Shown here: positions 22,225 to 29,978 of the stretch, in pieces
Numbering within the stretch: position 1 is the stretch's first letter
How the letters are laid out: every line of letters begins with the position of its first letter
Source of the DNA: Alphaproteobacteria bacterium
GTDB lineage: Bacteria > Pseudomonadota > Alphaproteobacteria > CAAGCB01 > CAG-977
Assembly (NCBI GenBank): GCA_017539865.1
Contig: JAFYCE010000018.1
Coordinates: forward strand, 1 to 33,012
DNA length: 33,012 nt
Direction of reading: 5' to 3'
Notes under the pieces: model-generated
What the model was told of the DNA's origin: nothing
The model's input: only the letters and a program-made list of their open reading frames with translations
Database searches by the model: none
Program-made: the position numbers and the translations under genes

Positions 22225-23208
22225 TTATCGTTCCTGCAATTTTGTCCGTATTTCGTCCAAAGTATAGCGCTGTTCTTTCAGTTCTTTCAACTGTTTTATT
22301 CTGGGCAGGATGTCCGAAGAATAAAGCGTATAATCGGCCGATGTTTTTCCCGCCGTTTCCAACAACCCCAGACTTGTCCAATAGCGGATGGTCGAAACGC
22401 GTTCTCCGCATTCCTTGGCCAACTGACCGATACGCAGAAAATAAGGATCCTGTTCGACATCTTCAACCGTTGACGTTTGCGCCGCCTTCAAATACATTTC
22501 CAGCGACCGGTTCACCGCCCGACAAATCAGCTTATCATACCCTTCGCGATCATTATTGAAAATCGCTTTTTCCAGTGTATTCCAGTACTCGGCTTTTTCG
22601 CGTCTGGAAAACAATACCGGCGGATAACCGTGACGCATTAAAATCAAATTCATCAATGATCTGGCGACGCAAGCGTTTCCTTTGCCGAAAGGCTGAATGG
22701 ACATCAGTTTTAAATGCGCTTCCGCCGCGATAGCCGCAGGATGAAGCGTTCCGGCGGCAAACAACCACATACCGAAATCATTCATCATCCGTTGGACGCG
22801 TACGGAATTCGGCAGATCATGCGTTCCGACCTGAAATTTCAATGGAAAACCGCGATACATTCCGCCATTGTTATCGTCCAGATTGCGTACGACAAGACGA
22901 TGTATTTCCCTTACGTCGGCATCATCCATCTGATGATTGACTTTCCGCGCCAGAGAGGAAATCATCTCAAACGCCTTTGCCGCGTTCAGCACTTGAATAT
23001 GTTCCGTTAAAGAATGTTTTTCGACCGCTTTGTCTTCATACAAAATGGCGGCCGTTTCCTTACAAGTCAGGCTGGAACCGTCGAAACAGCCGCCGACATA
23101 AGCCAGCTCCAATTCGATTTTTTTTCGCAATTCCTCCAAAATATCAGCAGATAAAGCCGGCTGCTTGTCCAACTCGCTTTTTTTGGTGTTCAAATCATCA
23201 TAAATCAT
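22225..23208 (-). CDS. Degenerate Fic-domain protein with C-terminal MerR-type DNA-binding domain
   Basis: This 327-residue protein combines a Fic fold (about 30-245) with a MerR-like helix-turn-helix (about 257-325). The Fic N-terminal helix is recognisable at FDGSSLTCKET (42-52), as is the later MYRGFPLKFQVGTH (117-130). The catalytic loop reads QPFGKGNACVAR (172-183) instead of HPFxDGNGRxxR: the catalytic His is Gln, the metal-binding acidic residue is Lys and the phosphate-binding Arg is Cys. AMP transfer is therefore not expected. The C-terminus reads IGQLAKECGERVSTIRYWTSLGLL in two parts (260-279 and onward), then a Tyr/Asp-Ile/Leu-rich helix pattern as in MerR regulators. GGAGA lies seven bases before the ATG. 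Its place 24 bases after gltA and one base before the peptidase suggests a ligand-sensing transcription regulator, possibly of this operon. That role is inference. Confidence 0.85.
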   Translation of the reverse strand: MIYDDLNTKKSELDKQPALSADILEELRKKIELELAYVGGCFDGSSLTCKETAAILYEDKAVEKHSLTEHIQVLNAAKAFEMISSLARKVNHQMDDADVREIHRLVVRNLDDNNGGMYRGFPLKFQVGTHDLPNSVRVQRMMNDFGMWLFAAGTLHPAAIAAEAHLKLMSIQPFGKGNACVARSLMNLILMRHGYPPVLFSRREKAEYWNTLEKAIFNNDREGYDKLICRAVNRSLEMYLKAAQTSTVEDVEQDPYFLRIGQLAKECGERVSTIRYWTSLGLLETAGKTSADYTLYSSDILPRIKQLKELKEQRYTLDEIRTKLQER

Positions 23209-23232: not shown

Positions 23233-24513
23233 TTATCGCAATTCCAAGGGCAGGAACGGAGTTTCGACCGGCCCCGAATACAGCTGGCGCGGACGGACCA
23301 AACGACGCTGTTCCATATTGTTTTCGCGCCAATGCGCAATCCACCCCGGCATCCGCCCGATTGCGAACATCACCGTGTACATATTCAGCGGTATCCTCAA
23401 CGCCCGCAAAATCATCCCCGAATAGAAATCAACGTTCGGATACAGATTGCGTTCTTTAAAGTAGTCGTCATTCAGTGCTTTTTCTTCCAACTTCAAAGCG
23501 ATGTCTATCAACGGATCGCTGACCCGTTCCGTTTCCAACAAATCAAAGACCGCCTTTTTCAAAATCTTCGCGCGCGGATCGAAAGTCTTATACACTCTGT
23601 GACCGAAGCCCATCAGGCGGACTTCTTTTCGTTTGACGCGTTCGACAAACCCGTCGACGTTTTCATCGCCTTTGGCCAGACGGGACAGCATTTCGAATAC
23701 GGCGACGTTCGCCCCGCCGTGCAGCTTCCCCCATAACGCGCAAATACCGGAAGCGACGGAAGAAAACAGGTTCGTTTCGGCAGACCCGACGATGCGCACG
23801 GTTGACGTTGAACAGTTCTGTTCGTGGTCGGCATGCAGCATCAAAAACAGATTCAGCGCCTTAATCGCCTCCTGCGTCGGCTGATGAGGCTTATTCGGAA
23901 TGGAAAACATCATATGCAGAAAGTTGTCGCAATAGCTTCGGGCGGGATCGGGATACACAAACGGCAACCCCATCGCTTTGCGGTAAGAGAAGGCGGCAAT
24001 CGTACGCACCTTGGAAATAATAGCCGCCACCGCGTTGCGCATGGCTTCCTCGTCTGTCGTATCCATGATTTCCGGCGAATAGCAAATCAGCGAATTGACG
24101 ACCGCCGACAAAATCGACATCGGCTGACCGTTCGGCGGGAAAGCGTCAAAATGATGCAACAAACCTTCATGCAGCAATTCGTTGTTTGTCAGCCGCGTAC
24201 TGAACGTCCGCATTTCCGCCATCGTCGGCAAACGGCCGTAAATCAACAGCCACGCCGTTTCAACGAACGTCATCTTTTCCGCCACCGTTTCGATCGGAAT
24301 GCCACGATAGCGCAAAATGCCTTTTTCCCCGTTGACATAAGTGATTTTGCTGATGCAGGACGCCGTATTGCCGAATCCGGGGTCCAGTGTCGTCAATCCC
24401 GTTTCGGCTCTGAGTTTGGAAATATCGATACAGCCTTCCCCCGTCGTCGAATACAGTACGGGGAATTCATATTCTTTGCCGTCATATTGCAATTTAACCG
24501 TTTTTTCCGTCAT
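23233..24513 (-). CDS. gltA: Citrate synthase GltA
   Basis: GltA condenses oxaloacetate and acetyl-CoA to citrate, the entry step of the TCA cycle. At 426 residues it matches the hexameric bacterial type, with a small N-terminal beta domain (about 1-45: VKLQYDGKEYEFPV). The catalytic triad is in place: His in LHADHEQNCSTSTVR, His in GFGHRVYK and Asp in NVDFYSG. The ATG overlaps the stop of the upstream isocitrate-dehydrogenase-like gene (ATGA), so translation is coupled. The Fic/MerR gene follows 24 bases later. Confidence 0.97.
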   Translation of the reverse strand: MTEKTVKLQYDGKEYEFPVLYSTTGEGCIDISKLRAETGLTTLDPGFGNTASCISKITYVNGEKGILRYRGIPIETVAEKMTFVETAWLLIYGRLPTMAEMRTFSTRLTNNELLHEGLLHHFDAFPPNGQPMSILSAVVNSLICYSPEIMDTTDEEAMRNAVAAIISKVRTIAAFSYRKAMGLPFVYPDPARSYCDNFLHMMFSIPNKPHQPTQEAIKALNLFLMLHADHEQNCSTSTVRIVGSAETNLFSSVASGICALWGKLHGGANVAVFEMLSRLAKGDENVDGFVERVKRKEVRLMGFGHRVYKTFDPRAKILKKAVFDLLETERVSDPLIDIALKLEEKALNDDYFKERNLYPNVDFYSGMILRALRIPLNMYTVMFAIGRMPGWIAHWRENNMEQRRLVRPRQLYSGPVETPFLPLELR

Positions 24514-26291
24514 CTGATTTCTTTCATTGTCCGATTTAATTCCAACGCCTGTTTTTGCGCCTCCTCTTTCAATCCCAGCAGTTTTGCCAAAGCCACTCTG
24601 ACCGCTTTGACAAATGAAAGAGTATCAACACCCGTTTTTTGAGAAGCCTTTAACTTCCCGACCAAATCAGGCGTCGCGATTCCGTTTTTCAAGACAAGAA
24701 CATAAGCGTCATGCAGAGATTGAGCATAAAGCTTCAGCCGCTCATTTTCCGGTTCTTTCAAAGCCGCCTGATGAAAACCGATTGCCAAACCTTCAATAAC
24801 CGGAATCGGATCGTAACGCCAAAAGCCTTCTTTTTTATACGCTTCGACCAAATCGGAAGCCGTCCCCGCGCCGCCCATTTCAGGCCATATCCGTCCGTCC
24901 GCCAACAATATGACCGAATTGATCGAAGCTATACTCGCCCCCAGATCCATTGCGTCCGAAACAATATCCCCCCACAGATTGTCATAAGCGTAACACGTCC
25001 CTCCCGGCAGAGGCGCCGTAAACATCATCACGGCGGCGGCGGCCGGTTTCATAATGATAAAATCCTGCCCTTCGACTTTTTTCAGTTTCCGCGCTTCTTT
25101 GCGTATCGCTTTAACAACGGGAACGTCATACATATCCGTTTCATCAAAGGCGAAAACGACGCGATCGTAATTTTTGACCGCCGTCTGATGGAACGCCTGT
25201 TTAACATAGCATTCCGCATCCCGATAATCATAGTTCATCGCTTCGAACATATCGCCCTTTTGAACGGGGATGCGGACTTCTTTAGCCCCGATATACAACC
25301 GGTACTCCCCGTCTTCCTTAGCAACCTGATTCAACCCGCCGTATTCGCTTTTTCCGGCGGAAAAACGGCAAACGGAAAATTCACCCAAAGGCTTTTTCAC
25401 CCCCGAAGTATAAACCGCGTTTAATACGGCGGCGATTTTCGGACCGTAAGACGGATCGGGAACAAGCACCGTCAAATTTCGAGCTTCGGGTTTTGCCAGC
25501 AATCGCGCAAAAGCCGCATCGACAATATCGCCTTGATTGCCTTCGCGACGTTCCAAACCGAACTTTTCCCGCCGGTCGTTATAAATTTTCTTCTTTTCAC
25601 CGTCCAATTCGGGACGAACCGTATATTTTGACATAAAGACGATTTCATCGCCTTTTTCGATTGCCAGATCACACAAATCGACAACATCCCTGCGACGGGT
25701 GACTTTTGCATACAAAGCGGAACCGGCCGATAATCTTTCCGGCTCCCTGACGGTTTGACGATTGAAATTGATTCGGACGTCCACGTCATTTTCCGGCACG
25801 AAAAAGTATCCGTCCTTCTCCCGTCCGCCATCCAAATACATGACATCAAGCTTGCCCGCCTTGTCATATTCCGGCAAAGACGTTTCCAGCAAATCCGACA
25901 ACCCCGGATTTTCGTAACGTTCCAAATTTCCTTTGACCAGCCAGTGTCCCCGCAAATAACCGTTCGGCGTCCCCGTCACCAGCTTTCCCAATTTTTCCGG
26001 TTTACGTTCATCTTCCAATTCGATCAAAGCAGCCTGTGTCTGTTCTTTTGTCGGCGTAATGCCGGGGCCTTTGACCAGAACGGCATTCGGGTCGCCGCCC
26101 GCCATTTCGATCGTTTCGCGGATCACCTCCCCGTTCGTCTGGATTCTGCCTTTCAAACTCCAGTCATGCTCGCGCAAACGTTTTTTGCCGATAAAGTCTT
26201 CAAACGGTATTATCAATTCCTGTTTGACGATTTTATAGGCTTCTCCGGCCGCTTCTTCGGGCAAAGCCACATCAATAAAAGCCTTAACCAT
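24510..26291 (-). CDS. Divergent isocitrate-dehydrogenase-like protein with a large insertion
   Basis: By eye this 593-residue protein follows the eukaryotic-type homodimeric NADP isocitrate dehydrogenase: GPGITPTKEQ (75-84) fits the ATITPDE segment, GTPNGYLRG (107-115) fits the isocitrate-binding SPNGTIRN, MSKYTV (220-225) fits STKNTI with the catalytic Lys (Lys222), and GDIVSD (441-446) fits GDVQSD with two metal Asp. The usual enzyme is about 400-420 residues. Here about 220 residues separate Lys222 from those Asp instead of about 63, so there is an insertion of roughly 150. LIDDMVA, which gives the third metal Asp, reads IIMKPAAAAV, and HGTVTRH, which holds the NADP phosphate, reads AGTASDL. 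It overlaps acnB by eight bases and gltA by four, so isocitrate to 2-oxoglutarate is the obvious role. Activity and cofactor (NAD is possible) are unproven. Confidence 0.8.
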   Translation of the reverse strand: MVKAFIDVALPEEAAGEAYKIVKQELIIPFEDFIGKKRLREHDWSLKGRIQTNGEVIRETIEMAGGDPNAVLVKGPGITPTKEQTQAALIELEDERKPEKLGKLVTGTPNGYLRGHWLVKGNLERYENPGLSDLLETSLPEYDKAGKLDVMYLDGGREKDGYFFVPENDVDVRINFNRQTVREPERLSAGSALYAKVTRRRDVVDLCDLAIEKGDEIVFMSKYTVRPELDGEKKKIYNDRREKFGLERREGNQGDIVDAAFARLLAKPEARNLTVLVPDPSYGPKIAAVLNAVYTSGVKKPLGEFSVCRFSAGKSEYGGLNQVAKEDGEYRLYIGAKEVRIPVQKGDMFEAMNYDYRDAECYVKQAFHQTAVKNYDRVVFAFDETDMYDVPVVKAIRKEARKLKKVEGQDFIIMKPAAAAVMMFTAPLPGGTCYAYDNLWGDIVSDAMDLGASIASINSVILLADGRIWPEMGGAGTASDLVEAYKKEGFWRYDPIPVIEGLAIGFHQAALKEPENERLKLYAQSLHDAYVLVLKNGIATPDLVGKLKASQKTGVDTLSFVKAVRVALAKLLGLKEEAQKQALELNRTMKEIR

Positions 26292-28803
26292 TATTCACCG
26301 CCTTAAAATACGTTTCGACATCGGGGAAAGCACCTGTCTTTGCCGCGACCGCTTCCAATTCCGCCGACACCAGATAAACGGAAGCCTCATCCCCCATCCT
26401 CGCCTTGAAATTCCTCGTGGAAGTCGTCAGCACGTTACGCTTTCCCCGCACACGTTCCTGATTGCCCATGCACAGGGAACAACCCGCGACTTCGACACGA
26501 ACGCCGCGCATTCTCAAAGCACTCAAAACATCGGCCAATTCCGCTTCGATCAGACGCGTCGGCGGCGTCGCCCACGTTTCGACAGCCAGACGATCCGTTC
26601 CCCGTGTGATCCGTTCAAACGCCTCGAAATCCTTTTTGCCGGACATGCACGATCCGATAAAGCAGAACTCCACCGGCGTTCCGGCCAATTCGGCCAAAGG
26701 CTTGACATTGTCCGGCGTATGCGGGCAAGCAATATACGGTTGGTCGATTTCAGCCAAATCAATATCCAGAGTATAAGCGTATTCCGCCTTGTCATCCGCC
26801 GTTACCGTCTGCGGATTTTCAACGTATTCCGACAGCGTCTTTTTCCTGTTTTCCAAAGCACAGTTATTGTCATACCCTTCCCGAATCAATCTCTCTATTA
26901 TCGGCAGAGAATGCCTTTTCACATAATCCGCCACCGTTTGATCGTCCTGCTCGAAATAAGCCGCCGCGGCAGAGCGTTCCGCCGAAGCGTTTGTCATTTT
27001 GAAAACGTCAATCATGTCAAACGGCTCTCCGATCCGGCGAAACTCGATGATTGAGCCCTCAAAGACGTTCTTTCCGAAAAGCTTTTGCGCTTTATACGGA
27101 ATATAGTTGACCAGATCGCGCACGGTAATTCCTTGTCTGAACTCGCCCGTCAGACGCACCAGAACGCTGTCCGGCACGGTGATTTCCGTCACACCCGTCG
27201 CCGCCGCTTCGGCAACGCCGCCGGAACCCAAAGGAAAACTTAAAGCGGTCGGCGTTCTGGTGTGCGAATCCCCGCCGACGACGATGGTATCCGGAACGAC
27301 CAGTTCATTCAACCATGAATGAATGATGCCGTCCCCCATGTTCAGCGTGATTCCGCCGATTGAACGCATATAATCGACCAACTTTTTATTTGCTGCAACG
27401 ACCGCCTCCGTCCGGAAACCCATGGCCGCGTTATGGCATTGGGATTGAAGCAGCAACGGAACGGCCAGCTTCATCGCCGCCAGCGTCCCCTGCAATTCCT
27501 GAACGGTCATGCCGCCCGTCGTATCCTGAGAAGCGACCGTATCGACTTTGGCGTAAACGGTTTGCCCTGAAGCGACACTTTTCACGCCGGCGGCCTTGGC
27601 GATAATCTTCTGCGCCGCCGTCATCGGACGGTTTTGCGCTTCAATCCGGCTTTCCGCATACGGCAGAGGAAATGTTTTTCCTAAAATCTTTTGCGCTGTC
27701 GTCGTCAATATCCGTCCCATACGGAACACCGTCGCCCCGCCCGCGCGCAACATATCCAGATTGCTTTGCGTCAACGGTTCAAAACGGGCGATTTCCGAAC
27801 CGTCTTCGGACAGAATCAGCCCTTTTCGCCATACGGCGCGGACAATCATGCCCGTTTTCAGTGCGTCCGTATCCGTTCTGACGATGATCGATCCCATATC
27901 CTCGGCGGTCTTGGCGAAGATGGGACCCAACACACGGCCGGCGAAAATCACGGCGCGTGTTTTTTTATCGGGAAGAAAACGCGTGTCTTCGTTTTCAATA
28001 CCGATATTCCATTCGACATTGTTCATGCCCGATTTTCGGGAGGAACTTGTTCCGATTTTATCCGCCGCCAAAACGACCGGAATATCCGGATGAGCCGCCT
28101 TTAAAGCGTTCAGAGCGTCCAACAGATCCCCGTTCATAAAGTAGTGTTTGCCATGAAAAGGAATATCCGTGCGCGTATGCCCGCCTTTGGAATGGGAAAG
28201 AAAGTCGGTCGACGCTTCGATTTCGTCGGGAATTTTAAAGACAACCAGTTTTGTTTCGGTTTCAAATTCGGGACGGTTCGAGAACCAGTCCGCCTTTGCC
28301 CATGACTCCAGCAGTTTTGCAGCCGGTTTGTTTCCCGTTCGATATAACCGCGCGACATCGGTCACCGCCTGATGGATCAGCACCAGACGGGATAAAACTT
28401 CGACCGCTTTATCTGCGGTTTTCCGCTTTGTCAGCAAATCAAGCAGAACGGGAATGTTCTGTCCGCCTTTCATATATCCCAGATATTCGATCGCCCGTCC
28501 GGACGTCAATCTGTCAACGACAACTTTTCCTGAAGCGACGCGCCCCAAAAATTCCGCTTTGACTTTGGCGGCTTCATCCGTTCCGGCGGGAACGCGATTT
28601 AACAGCAAAGCTAAAGCTTTCTCCGTTTGTTTGTTTTTTTCCAGCAATTCGACACAAGCCGCCGTTTGTTCCGCATTCAACGGCAGCGGCGGCAAACCGT
28701 CCTGTTTGCGGGACGAAGTACCGTCTTCGACATGTTTCGGATCGAAAGGACGAGGCTGTTCGTACGCGGCTTCATACGCCTGTAAAATTTTTTCGGCCGT
28801 CAT
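26284..28803 (-). CDS. acnB: Aconitate hydratase B AcnB
   Basis: AcnB isomerises citrate to isocitrate with a 4Fe-4S cluster. The 839-residue protein has the AcnB order: an N-terminal helical HEAT-like domain (about 1-160), the swivelling domain (about 165-380, with SSSRKSGMNN), then the catalytic domains with SQDTTGGMT, HSWLNELVVPDTIVVGGDSH, and TGVTEITVPDSVLVR. The cluster cysteines are visible in IGSCMSGKKDF (one) and GCSLCMGNQERV (two). TSTRNF is the late substrate-binding segment. E. coli AcnB is 865 residues, and the difference is mainly a missing C-terminal tail of about 30. SCMTNIGHF of E. coli is SCMSGKKDF here. It starts 16 bases after a lipoprotein gene and leads the acnB-icd-gltA block. 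Confidence 0.95.
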   Translation of the reverse strand: MTAEKILQAYEAAYEQPRPFDPKHVEDGTSSRKQDGLPPLPLNAEQTAACVELLEKNKQTEKALALLLNRVPAGTDEAAKVKAEFLGRVASGKVVVDRLTSGRAIEYLGYMKGGQNIPVLLDLLTKRKTADKAVEVLSRLVLIHQAVTDVARLYRTGNKPAAKLLESWAKADWFSNRPEFETETKLVVFKIPDEIEASTDFLSHSKGGHTRTDIPFHGKHYFMNGDLLDALNALKAAHPDIPVVLAADKIGTSSSRKSGMNNVEWNIGIENEDTRFLPDKKTRAVIFAGRVLGPIFAKTAEDMGSIIVRTDTDALKTGMIVRAVWRKGLILSEDGSEIARFEPLTQSNLDMLRAGGATVFRMGRILTTTAQKILGKTFPLPYAESRIEAQNRPMTAAQKIIAKAAGVKSVASGQTVYAKVDTVASQDTTGGMTVQELQGTLAAMKLAVPLLLQSQCHNAAMGFRTEAVVAANKKLVDYMRSIGGITLNMGDGIIHSWLNELVVPDTIVVGGDSHTRTPTALSFPLGSGGVAEAAATGVTEITVPDSVLVRLTGEFRQGITVRDLVNYIPYKAQKLFGKNVFEGSIIEFRRIGEPFDMIDVFKMTNASAERSAAAAYFEQDDQTVADYVKRHSLPIIERLIREGYDNNCALENRKKTLSEYVENPQTVTADDKAEYAYTLDIDLAEIDQPYIACPHTPDNVKPLAELAGTPVEFCFIGSCMSGKKDFEAFERITRGTDRLAVETWATPPTRLIEAELADVLSALRMRGVRVEVAGCSLCMGNQERVRGKRNVLTTSTRNFKARMGDEASVYLVSAELEAVAAKTGAFPDVETYFKAVNNG

Positions 28804-28819: not shown

Positions 28820-29245
28820 TTAAGGAACGATCAAACCGTATAAGGGCGGATCGGGCATTTTGAGCAATTTCAATCCGTTTTCGCCTTTGAAAAAAGTCAA
28901 AACCGTTTCGCCGTTTTGGTTGTCAATGCCGTAGCGGAACGACCGAACCGTCCGGACGAAATAAACGGACGACCGATAAATACCGGTTTCTTTATCAACC
29001 GTTGTCCGAAAAACGGAAGTTCTGTAATCCACATCCTGAAATCCGGCAAAATCGTTTTCAACGGCGATTTTCAAATTATCCCGATTTCCCTGATAATTTT
29101 TATCGACCAACCCCATAAAGGCGTCCAAATCTTTTTCTTTATAAGCCTGATTCATCCGGCTCAGTGTTTGTCCGACCTCTGCCGAAGGATCAAAAAGAGT
29201 ACACCCGGACAAAAACAGAAAAAGAAACAGCGTCAGACGTTTCAT
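28820..29245 (-). CDS. Small lipoprotein with possible NTF2-like domain
   Basis: This 141-residue protein has a lipoprotein signal (MKRLTLFLFLFLSGC, lipobox LSGC, Cys15). The mature part begins with a helix (AEVGQTLSRMNQAYKEKDLDAFMGLVDKNY in two parts), followed by several strand-like segments (IAVENDFAGFQDVDY, TSVFRTTVD, YRSSVYFVR, GETVLTFFKGE). That helix-then-strands layout, with the phrase 'Ala-Tyr-x-x-Lys-Asp-Leu-Asp-Ala-Phe', resembles SnoaL/NTF2-like domains, but this is only a by-eye resemblance. GGAG lies about five bases before the ATG. It sits 12 bases after another lipoprotein gene and 16 before acnB. It is probably anchored in the outer or inner membrane, facing the periplasm. 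Confidence 0.82.
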   Translation of the reverse strand: MKRLTLFLFLFLSGCTLFDPSAEVGQTLSRMNQAYKEKDLDAFMGLVDKNYQGNRDNLKIAVENDFAGFQDVDYRTSVFRTTVDKETGIYRSSVYFVRTVRSFRYGIDNQNGETVLTFFKGENGLKLLKMPDPPLYGLIVP

Positions 29246-29257
29246 AAACGCTCCTTT

Positions 29258-29917
29258 CTACTCAGATTTCTGTGCCGCGGCGAAATCGTGCAGGGCAACC
29301 ATCACCGTACGAGTGAAGACCGGTTGTTTTTTATTCATATCCGATTCTCTTTTCACCGGATACGTATAACGGATTCTGACATATGACATCAAATCCTTAT
29401 TCGCGCCCAAAACCAGAAAAGAAACTTTATTTTCTTCATTTTGAGAAAACCGCGCTTCCGCCTCCGTCACTTGATATTTAACCGATTTCCAACGAAATTC
29501 CCTCGGTTTTACCGTTCCGATATCGACATTCGCATACAGTCCGGAATCCTGAAGCGCCTGAAATTCCTGCAAATGCTTGTTCATCAATGCTTCCAAGACC
29601 GGATCGATTTCCTCGGCAACGCCGAAGTTCTGGTTATTGTAAACAAAAACAGTCGCCATCATATCTTCATAGGCATAGACACGGACAAAGCCCGCCCCTC
29701 GCTGATTTTTTTCACGATCGGCGACGGCTTCAACGGATTTGAATCCGGCGATTTCTTCCGGCAACGATTCAGTCGCTTTTCTTTGAGTATCGGCAACAGC
29801 CGCCTGCACCCGCTCTGTCAAAGACATTTTCGCCGACGCCGTCTTTTCCAAAGAATCCGTCGCCGCACAAGCCGACAGTAAAAAGATTGCGGTGCAAACT
29901 TTAAAAACCGTTTTCAT
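29258..29917 (-). CDS. Lipoprotein, 219 residues
   Basis: The longer frame begins at an ATG at 29941 that has no ribosome site. The ATG at 29917 gives a standard lipoprotein signal (MKTVFKVCTAIFLLSACA, lipobox LSAC, Cys18) and has a purine-rich GGGGAAAA upstream, so I use it. The mature protein starts with a Ser/Thr/Ala linker and a helix, then mixed strands (GFVRVYAYEDMMATVFVYN, REFRWKSVKYQVTEAEARFS) and a final basic strand region. I recognise no family. It is the first gene after the predicted promoter at 29951-29978 and is followed 12 bases later by the second lipoprotein. Both are periplasmic-facing, and their link to the TCA genes behind them is unexplained. Confidence 0.8.
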   Translation of the reverse strand: MKTVFKVCTAIFLLSACAATDSLEKTASAKMSLTERVQAAVADTQRKATESLPEEIAGFKSVEAVADREKNQRGAGFVRVYAYEDMMATVFVYNNQNFGVAEEIDPVLEALMNKHLQEFQALQDSGLYANVDIGTVKPREFRWKSVKYQVTEAEARFSQNEENKVSFLVLGANKDLMSYVRIRYTYPVKRESDMNKKQPVFTRTVMVALHDFAAAQKSE

Positions 29918-29950
29918 GGTGATTTTCCCCGACTGTTTCATCTTGTCAGC

Positions 29951-29978
29951 ATTTTAACAAAAAAACAGCGGGAATCAA
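29951..29978 (-). promoter_or_regulatory. Promoter ahead of the lipoprotein-TCA gene run
   Basis: On the minus strand TTGATT (29978-29973) and TAAAAT (29956-29951) are separated by 16 bases, in the 70-base gap between the U32 gene and the first lipoprotein. The leader would be about 25 bases. The genes downstream to 20664 have gaps of 24 bases or less, so this could drive lipoproteins, acnB, icd, gltA, fic-merR and the M32 peptidase. Confidence 0.5.

Follow-up and report, generated by a model that had tools for sequence, protein, structure and literature searches.

A predicted Fic-MerR pseudoenzyme retained behind a citrate-cycle gene run in rumen Alphaproteobacteria

The locus and its conservation

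The analysed window, a 33,012-nucleotide stretch of contig JAFYCE010000018.1, carries on its reverse strand a run of citrate-cycle (TCA) genes that is headed by two predicted lipoprotein genes and closed by fic-merR (Table 1). An initial annotation had placed fic-merR 24 bases behind gltA, and the open reading frame coordinates bear this out, with the fic-merR start lying 24 bases downstream of the gltA stop.

Table 1. Coordinates of genes, protein domains and the promoter in the window
Feature	Position	Strand	Description
fic-merR gene	22225..23208	-	327 aa pseudo-Fic/MerR fusion; ORF call, Pfam, phmmer, orthologues in 11/12 family genomes
MerR-type helix-turn-helix domain	22231..22434	-	residues 259-326; Pfam PF13411 and PF00376
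second HTH helix, putative recognition helix	22372..22398	-	residues 271-279, VSTIRYWTS; model helix 271-279
Fic core	22639..22926	-	residues 95-190; Pfam PF02661; model pLDDT 88.5; FICD Z ~32
degenerate Fic loop QPFGKGNACVAR	22660..22695	-	residues 172-183; read from sequence
inhibitory-helix motif position	23068..23103	-	residues 36-47, AYVGGCFDGSSL; intact relatives TSNAIEGNTL
gltA (citrate synthase)	23233..24513	-	24 bp upstream of fic-merR; constant neighbour
unusual isocitrate dehydrogenase, 593 aa	24510..26291	-	overlaps gltA by 4 bp
acnB (aconitate hydratase B)	26284..28803	-	
small predicted lipoprotein, conserved second gene of run	28820..29245	-	no Pfam match; lipobox-like start; synteny
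predicted lipoprotein, conserved first gene of run	29258..29941	-	no Pfam match above cut-off; lipobox-like start; synteny
sigma-70-like promoter of run, TTGATT-16-TAAAAT	29951..29978	-	not MerR-type operator

The source lineage is a taxonomic family of rumen Alphaproteobacteria with 12 genomes, and the order comprises the same 12. Orthologues of fic-merR were found in 11 of them (54-84 % identity), all with intact reading frames. In each of these carrier genomes the order lipoprotein-lipoprotein-acnB-icd-gltA-ficmerR is kept, fic-merR is the last gene and the gap between gltA and fic-merR measures 10-30 bp. This recurrence at the same place excludes chance. Genome G001 has about 2.9 kb between the two lipoprotein genes, and the 3' neighbours of fic-merR vary: an M32 carboxypeptidase gene follows in the window genome, G002 and G004 and is absent in the other genus members. 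A cognate antitoxin, as in a FicTA module, does not adjoin fic-merR in the window, where its neighbours are gltA and the M32 carboxypeptidase gene. As to the other genes of the run, both Pfam-less predicted lipoproteins are conserved at its head throughout the family, and the isocitrate dehydrogenase is weakly similar to the monomeric (E 6e-13) and homodimeric types and possibly belongs to an unusual class of this enzyme.

Between genus members, dN/dS (Nei-Gojobori) was about 0.06-0.13 over the full gene (Fic part 0.04-0.12, MerR part 0.03-0.09), values that are approximate because synonymous sites are near or at saturation. Conservation is highest in the HTH; 44 % of the MerR residues are invariant among the 11 orthologues, all of which share GERVST.RYWT at the HTH in the alignment. 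Genome G005, which belongs to the same genus and is 98 % complete, has the operon without fic-merR, and no remnant of the gene was detected in the 0.7 kb behind gltA. Since fic-merR was lost here without loss of the operon, the gene is dispensable.

Domain architecture and the degenerate active site

Pfam recognised a Fic domain at residues 95-190 (41.6 bits, cut-off 24) and MerR_1 (PF13411) at residues 259-326 (45.6 bits, cut-off 21.6), and NCBIfam profiles also detected a MerR-type HTH. The best sequence match in the PDB was FICD (phmmer, 4.8e-26, residues 39-244). An AlphaFold2 model built with 24 aligned homologues reached a mean pLDDT of 88.5, compared with 45 for a model from three close sequences, and its residues 1-247 matched FICD structures with Z ~32 and an rmsd below 2 Å. 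Foldseek and VIA matches span the Fic part (residues 1-248), and the HTH assignment comes from the profiles and the whole-protein model. The protein therefore has a Fic (Fido) fold by profile and fold and carries a MerR-type DNA-binding domain by HTH profile, in agreement with the fusion described in the initial annotation; a C-terminal fold other than an HTH, which would have spoken against it, was not what the profiles found.

The class II enzyme FICD/HYPE is both the nearest solved Fic fold and the best sequence match, but it has TPR repeats and a membrane segment in place of the HTH, and its active site and inhibitory Glu are intact. Fic2 of Coxiella burnetii, also of class II, resembles the window protein in combining Fic with a C-terminal HTH, and both its activity and its oligomeric state are switched when it binds DNA (PMC10628234, PDB 8cil). 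The two differ in that the HTH of Fic2 is a DeoR-type winged HTH and its motif, HPFDDGNGRIGR, is canonical; the match of our model to 8cil (Z 22) covers the Fic part only. By profile, the HTH type is shared with the MerR regulators MtaN, CueR and ZntR. In contrast to these, the HTH is C-terminal and the canonical MerR architecture is absent: the HTH is followed immediately by the chain end (residue 327), with neither a long C-terminal dimerisation helix nor an effector-binding domain.

The loop of the window protein, QPFGKGNACVAR, deviates from the AMP-transferase motif HxFx(D/E)GNGRxxR by exchange of His for Gln, Asp/Glu for Lys, the first Arg for Cys and the second Gly for Ala, while the last Arg is retained. 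The reported loss of the catalytic His, acid and Arg is thus evident in this loop. Besides QPFGKGNACVAR, the loops of the 11 orthologues read QPFGQGNAGVAR, QPFGQGNACVAR, QPFGMGNACTAR, QPFATGNACTAR, MPFGTGNAETAR, HPFGKGNGKTAR, WPFAEGNVRTAR, HPFAMGNGAVAR, QPFAESNGDVAR and QPFNKGNGSVAR; in the alignment none of the 11 has the complete triad of H, D/E and R, nor did an intact HPFxxGNGR loop, as recent decay or a sequencing error would imply, occur among them. The catalytic defect is therefore common to the whole set, but the His-to-Gln exchange itself, whose sharing the initial annotation had raised, is not uniform (Q in seven, H in two, M and W in one each). Eight residues are found at the first Arg position (C, G, E, K, R, A, D and S) and five at the acidic position (K, Q, M, T and E), in contrast to P173, F174, N178, A182 and R183, which are invariant. 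A further Fic protein, encoded at locus L016 (G004:C3), likewise has Gln where the catalytic His would be, but its loop (IQPFEDGNKRTSR) is otherwise near-canonical.

The inhibitory motif [S/T]xxxE[G/N] is altered to GGCFDG in the window protein, which hence lacks the intact N-terminal inhibitory helix of class II Fic proteins. Among the 11 orthologues the acid of this helix is always D or E and the Ser/Thr position is Gly in eight. It is possible that this acid, together with the invariant last Arg of the loop, still locks the loop.

An unusual residual Fic activity with altered residues, either another transfer or AMP removal, appears very unlikely to us. The His is kept in two of the 11 orthologues, and a deAMPylase function has been proposed for BepFIC motifs that are degenerate and carry Glu in place of the second Gly (PMC8401265), but the first Arg and acidic positions are so variable that they do not resemble an active site under selection. 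It is even less probable, to the point of being negligible, that fic-merR is a decaying passenger from an integrated element. The degenerate loop and the clean loss in G005 would fit such an origin; contrary to it are the low dN/dS, the fixed position and the reading frames, which are intact in all 11 orthologues even at 54 % identity. Judged by its sequence, fic-merR is an old, maintained pseudoenzyme and not a product of decay or a sequencing error, as indicated by its presence in 11 of 12 genomes, its fixed place behind gltA, purifying selection and the lack of a complete catalytic motif.

Intact relatives and a predicted autoregulatory operator

Five other alphaproteobacterial families, in a class-wide sample of 385 genomes, contain full-length Fic-MerR proteins whose HPFxDGNGRxxR motif is intact (L036-L040, with L038 truncated at its start), in unrelated neighbourhoods. 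These relatives align across residues 1-326 of the window protein, with Fic and C-terminal MerR in one chain, and their inhibitory helix is intact (TSNAIEGN). Their occurrence is sporadic, with the gene in one of three and one of five genomes of two orders searched. Fusions of Fic to HTH domains were already known, mostly of the ArsR type (Kinch, 2009, PMC2686095), and no earlier account of Fic-MerR proteins as a family turned up in the papers searched. The MerR partner had been regarded as unusual in the initial annotation; as intact Fic-MerR proteins exist elsewhere, it is not unique.

A scan of viral contigs yielded further intact Fic-MerR genes (L074-L078), the viral status being the IMG/VR call together with our examination of the nearest genes; L074 is surrounded by genes for a Sak4-like protein, a sigma factor, a recombinase and an integrase. 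L014 (G001) and L080 are also intact but constitute a separate, second branch whose MerR match is shorter; L080 adjoins phage head genes. The plasmid search returned Fic relatives, and among the 20 matches listed none extended beyond query residue 272, so that no complete Fic-MerR was among them. On the contig of L079, classed as viral, an intact-loop Fic is fused to HTH_17 and not to MerR (1974-2918).

In the tree, the 11 TCA-linked proteins are monophyletic with 100/100 support and a long stem (1.2), and the Fic proteins around them have nearly all canonical loops. L044/L072 from the 1.1 Mb genome G325 combines a MerR domain with a Fic part so degenerate (IQPFEGRTTDLAQW) that Pfam misses it; its very long branch is placed near L038 and L074, outside the TCA clade, and in this protein Fic catalysis was likely lost a second time, independently.

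In all seven independent intact genes with the start covered, a palindromic element of 29 bp lies across the promoter, immediately 5' of the ATG (element loci L036, L037, L039, L040 and L074-L078). It has the consensus AAA[CG][CT][AG]TnAnGTnAYACTTTAT[AG][CG]TTTAT or a close variant, overlaps TTGnAA-17-TATACT-like hexamers in most intact genes and forms a 27-bp palindrome in L037. Left-one-out scores of the seven independent sites were 25-36 bits, compared with 16-24 bits for the best of 200 Markov-resampled loci each. With up to three mismatches allowed, the pattern occurred at a single place per genome, before the Fic-MerR gene, in the four bacterial genomes with the gene start covered. In two of these genomes it matched both strands, which is expected of a palindrome, and a reversed control pattern had no match in any of the four. 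Among 2.9 million viral contigs it was found on seven, in five of them 5' of a Fic-MerR gene; because the pattern was built from the sites it recovers, the genome and viral counts test its specificity and not its discovery. The other two viral contigs, L162 (1112-1139) and L163 (168-195), are identical at the site and contain an operator-like match without a Fic gene, which we took as chance or unrelated. Upstream of the second-branch genes L014 and L080, five copies of a half-site, AAACTATRAAGT, were found (expected <0.01). These half-sites partly form everted pairs, at about 2421-2491 in L014 and at 1876-1968 in L080.

An experimentally established precedent is CccR of Yersinia pseudotuberculosis, which represses its own promoter via palindromes near the -35 and -10 hexamers (PMC9755527). 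CccR is similar to the intact Fic-MerR relatives in its N-terminal Fic, its C-terminal HTH and the palindromes on its own promoter, which in the relatives are predicted here. Given the promoter palindrome and this precedent, the element is probably an autoregulatory operator, and the intact Fic-MerR proteins are predicted to be self-repressing. CccR differs from the window protein, however, by an active Fic motif, another HTH type and secretion by a T6SS, whereas the window protein is catalytically dead by its motif and has no such operator.

The 29-bp element was detected in none of the 12 family genomes, the window included, and the TCA-linked clade has, by this pattern search, lost the ancestral element. 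Fixed changes in its HTH comprise Arg270 (T, N, S or P in intact relatives) and Asp292 in place of the wing Gly. Together with the missing operator site, these changes suggest that the TCA-linked proteins bind a changed site or bind elsewhere.

The promoter of the run and the role of the protein

It had been proposed that fic-merR regulates acnB-icd-gltA through the promoter at 29951-29978. A promoter, TTGATT-16-TAAAAT, is indeed present there, but it is a plain sigma-70 promoter. Across the genus its conservation is limited to the two hexamers, TTGATT and TAAAAT-like, with a spacer of 15-17 bp, and no dyad is shared upstream of the first lipoprotein gene. Candidate MerR dyads in this region occur in single genomes only, inside the coding end of a U32 peptidase gene, and were discarded as not shared. 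The classical MerR mechanism requires a dyad within a long spacer. In contrast to the targets of MtaN, CueR and ZntR, no dyad in a 19-20 bp spacer was found at the operon promoter, which also lacks the 29-bp family operator, and G005 retains this promoter unchanged despite lacking fic-merR.

A feedback loop, with the Fic pocket as sensor of a TCA metabolite or nucleotide and the operon promoter as the MerR domain's site of action, is therefore doubtful. It would agree with the position of fic-merR as last gene of the run in all 11 carriers, the strongly conserved HTH and the common location of regulators next to their pathway genes. The ordinary spacer, the lack of a conserved dyad or family operator and the promoter kept in the gene-less G005 leave the regulatory claim unsupported at the operon promoter, where control by other modes is possible. 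Control of the TCA operon by fic-merR as such is possible, but adjacency is the only thing that speaks for it.

The protein might instead act at the protein level: its dead Fic domain would bind a partner, such as an enzyme of the TCA cycle or a protein once targeted by Fic, and its HTH would be a remnant. The sequence LFSRREK.EYW is nearly invariant in the TCA-linked clade, unlike in intact relatives, and the Fic protein BepC, whose motif is non-canonical and for which no activity has been detected, acts by binding (PMC8401265). The non-canonical Fic domains of the Bartonella Beps are similar to the window protein in a retained fold with a degenerate signature motif, but the Beps are secreted effectors with BID domains and without a DNA-binding domain. 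A remnant would not be expected to exceed the rest of the protein in conservation, as the HTH does, and we consider this explanation unlikely.

Our preferred interpretation, which we hold with moderate confidence, is that the TCA-linked protein is a domesticated, catalytically dead member of the Fic-MerR family that acts as a DNA-binding regulator, is co-expressed with the TCA genes and uses its Fic fold as a scaffold. Ancestral-type members would have been self-repressing Fic AMP-transferases, partly carried by phages. One copy would then have become fixed behind the lipoprotein-lipoprotein-acnB-icd-gltA run and shed its operator and catalytic residues and, in most orthologues, the inhibitory-motif Ser/Thr, with the HTH kept under purifying selection. 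Intact cousins in phages and scattered genomes, behind an apparent self-repression switch, point to such a taming of a mobile-element gene into a fixed cellular one. Expressed along with the TCA genes, the protein would act, to judge from its domain, at sites other than those examined or at changed ones, and the Fic fold may act as a scaffold for dimerisation and perhaps also provide a ligand pocket. What counts against the preferred interpretation is that DNA binding of the TCA-linked clade is deduced from the domain, and that neither the search of the 12 genomes with the family operator pattern nor the operon promoter yielded a target site; the loss of the gene in G005, where the operon persists, also weighs against it. 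A bolder version, which we put forward as speculative, is that an ancestor of the family acquired a phage-borne, self-repressing Fic-MerR AMP-transferase behind gltA, which then lost catalysis and operator and became a ligand-sensing transcription factor that couples expression of the TCA operon to a new regulon.

What is new here are intact Fic-MerR proteins in scattered families and on phage contigs together with a predicted autoregulatory operator, which makes self-repression of one-gene Fic enzymes on phages readily testable. The TCA-linked clade would represent an enzyme-regulator fusion in which the enzymatic half has been switched off while the DNA-binding half is still under selection.
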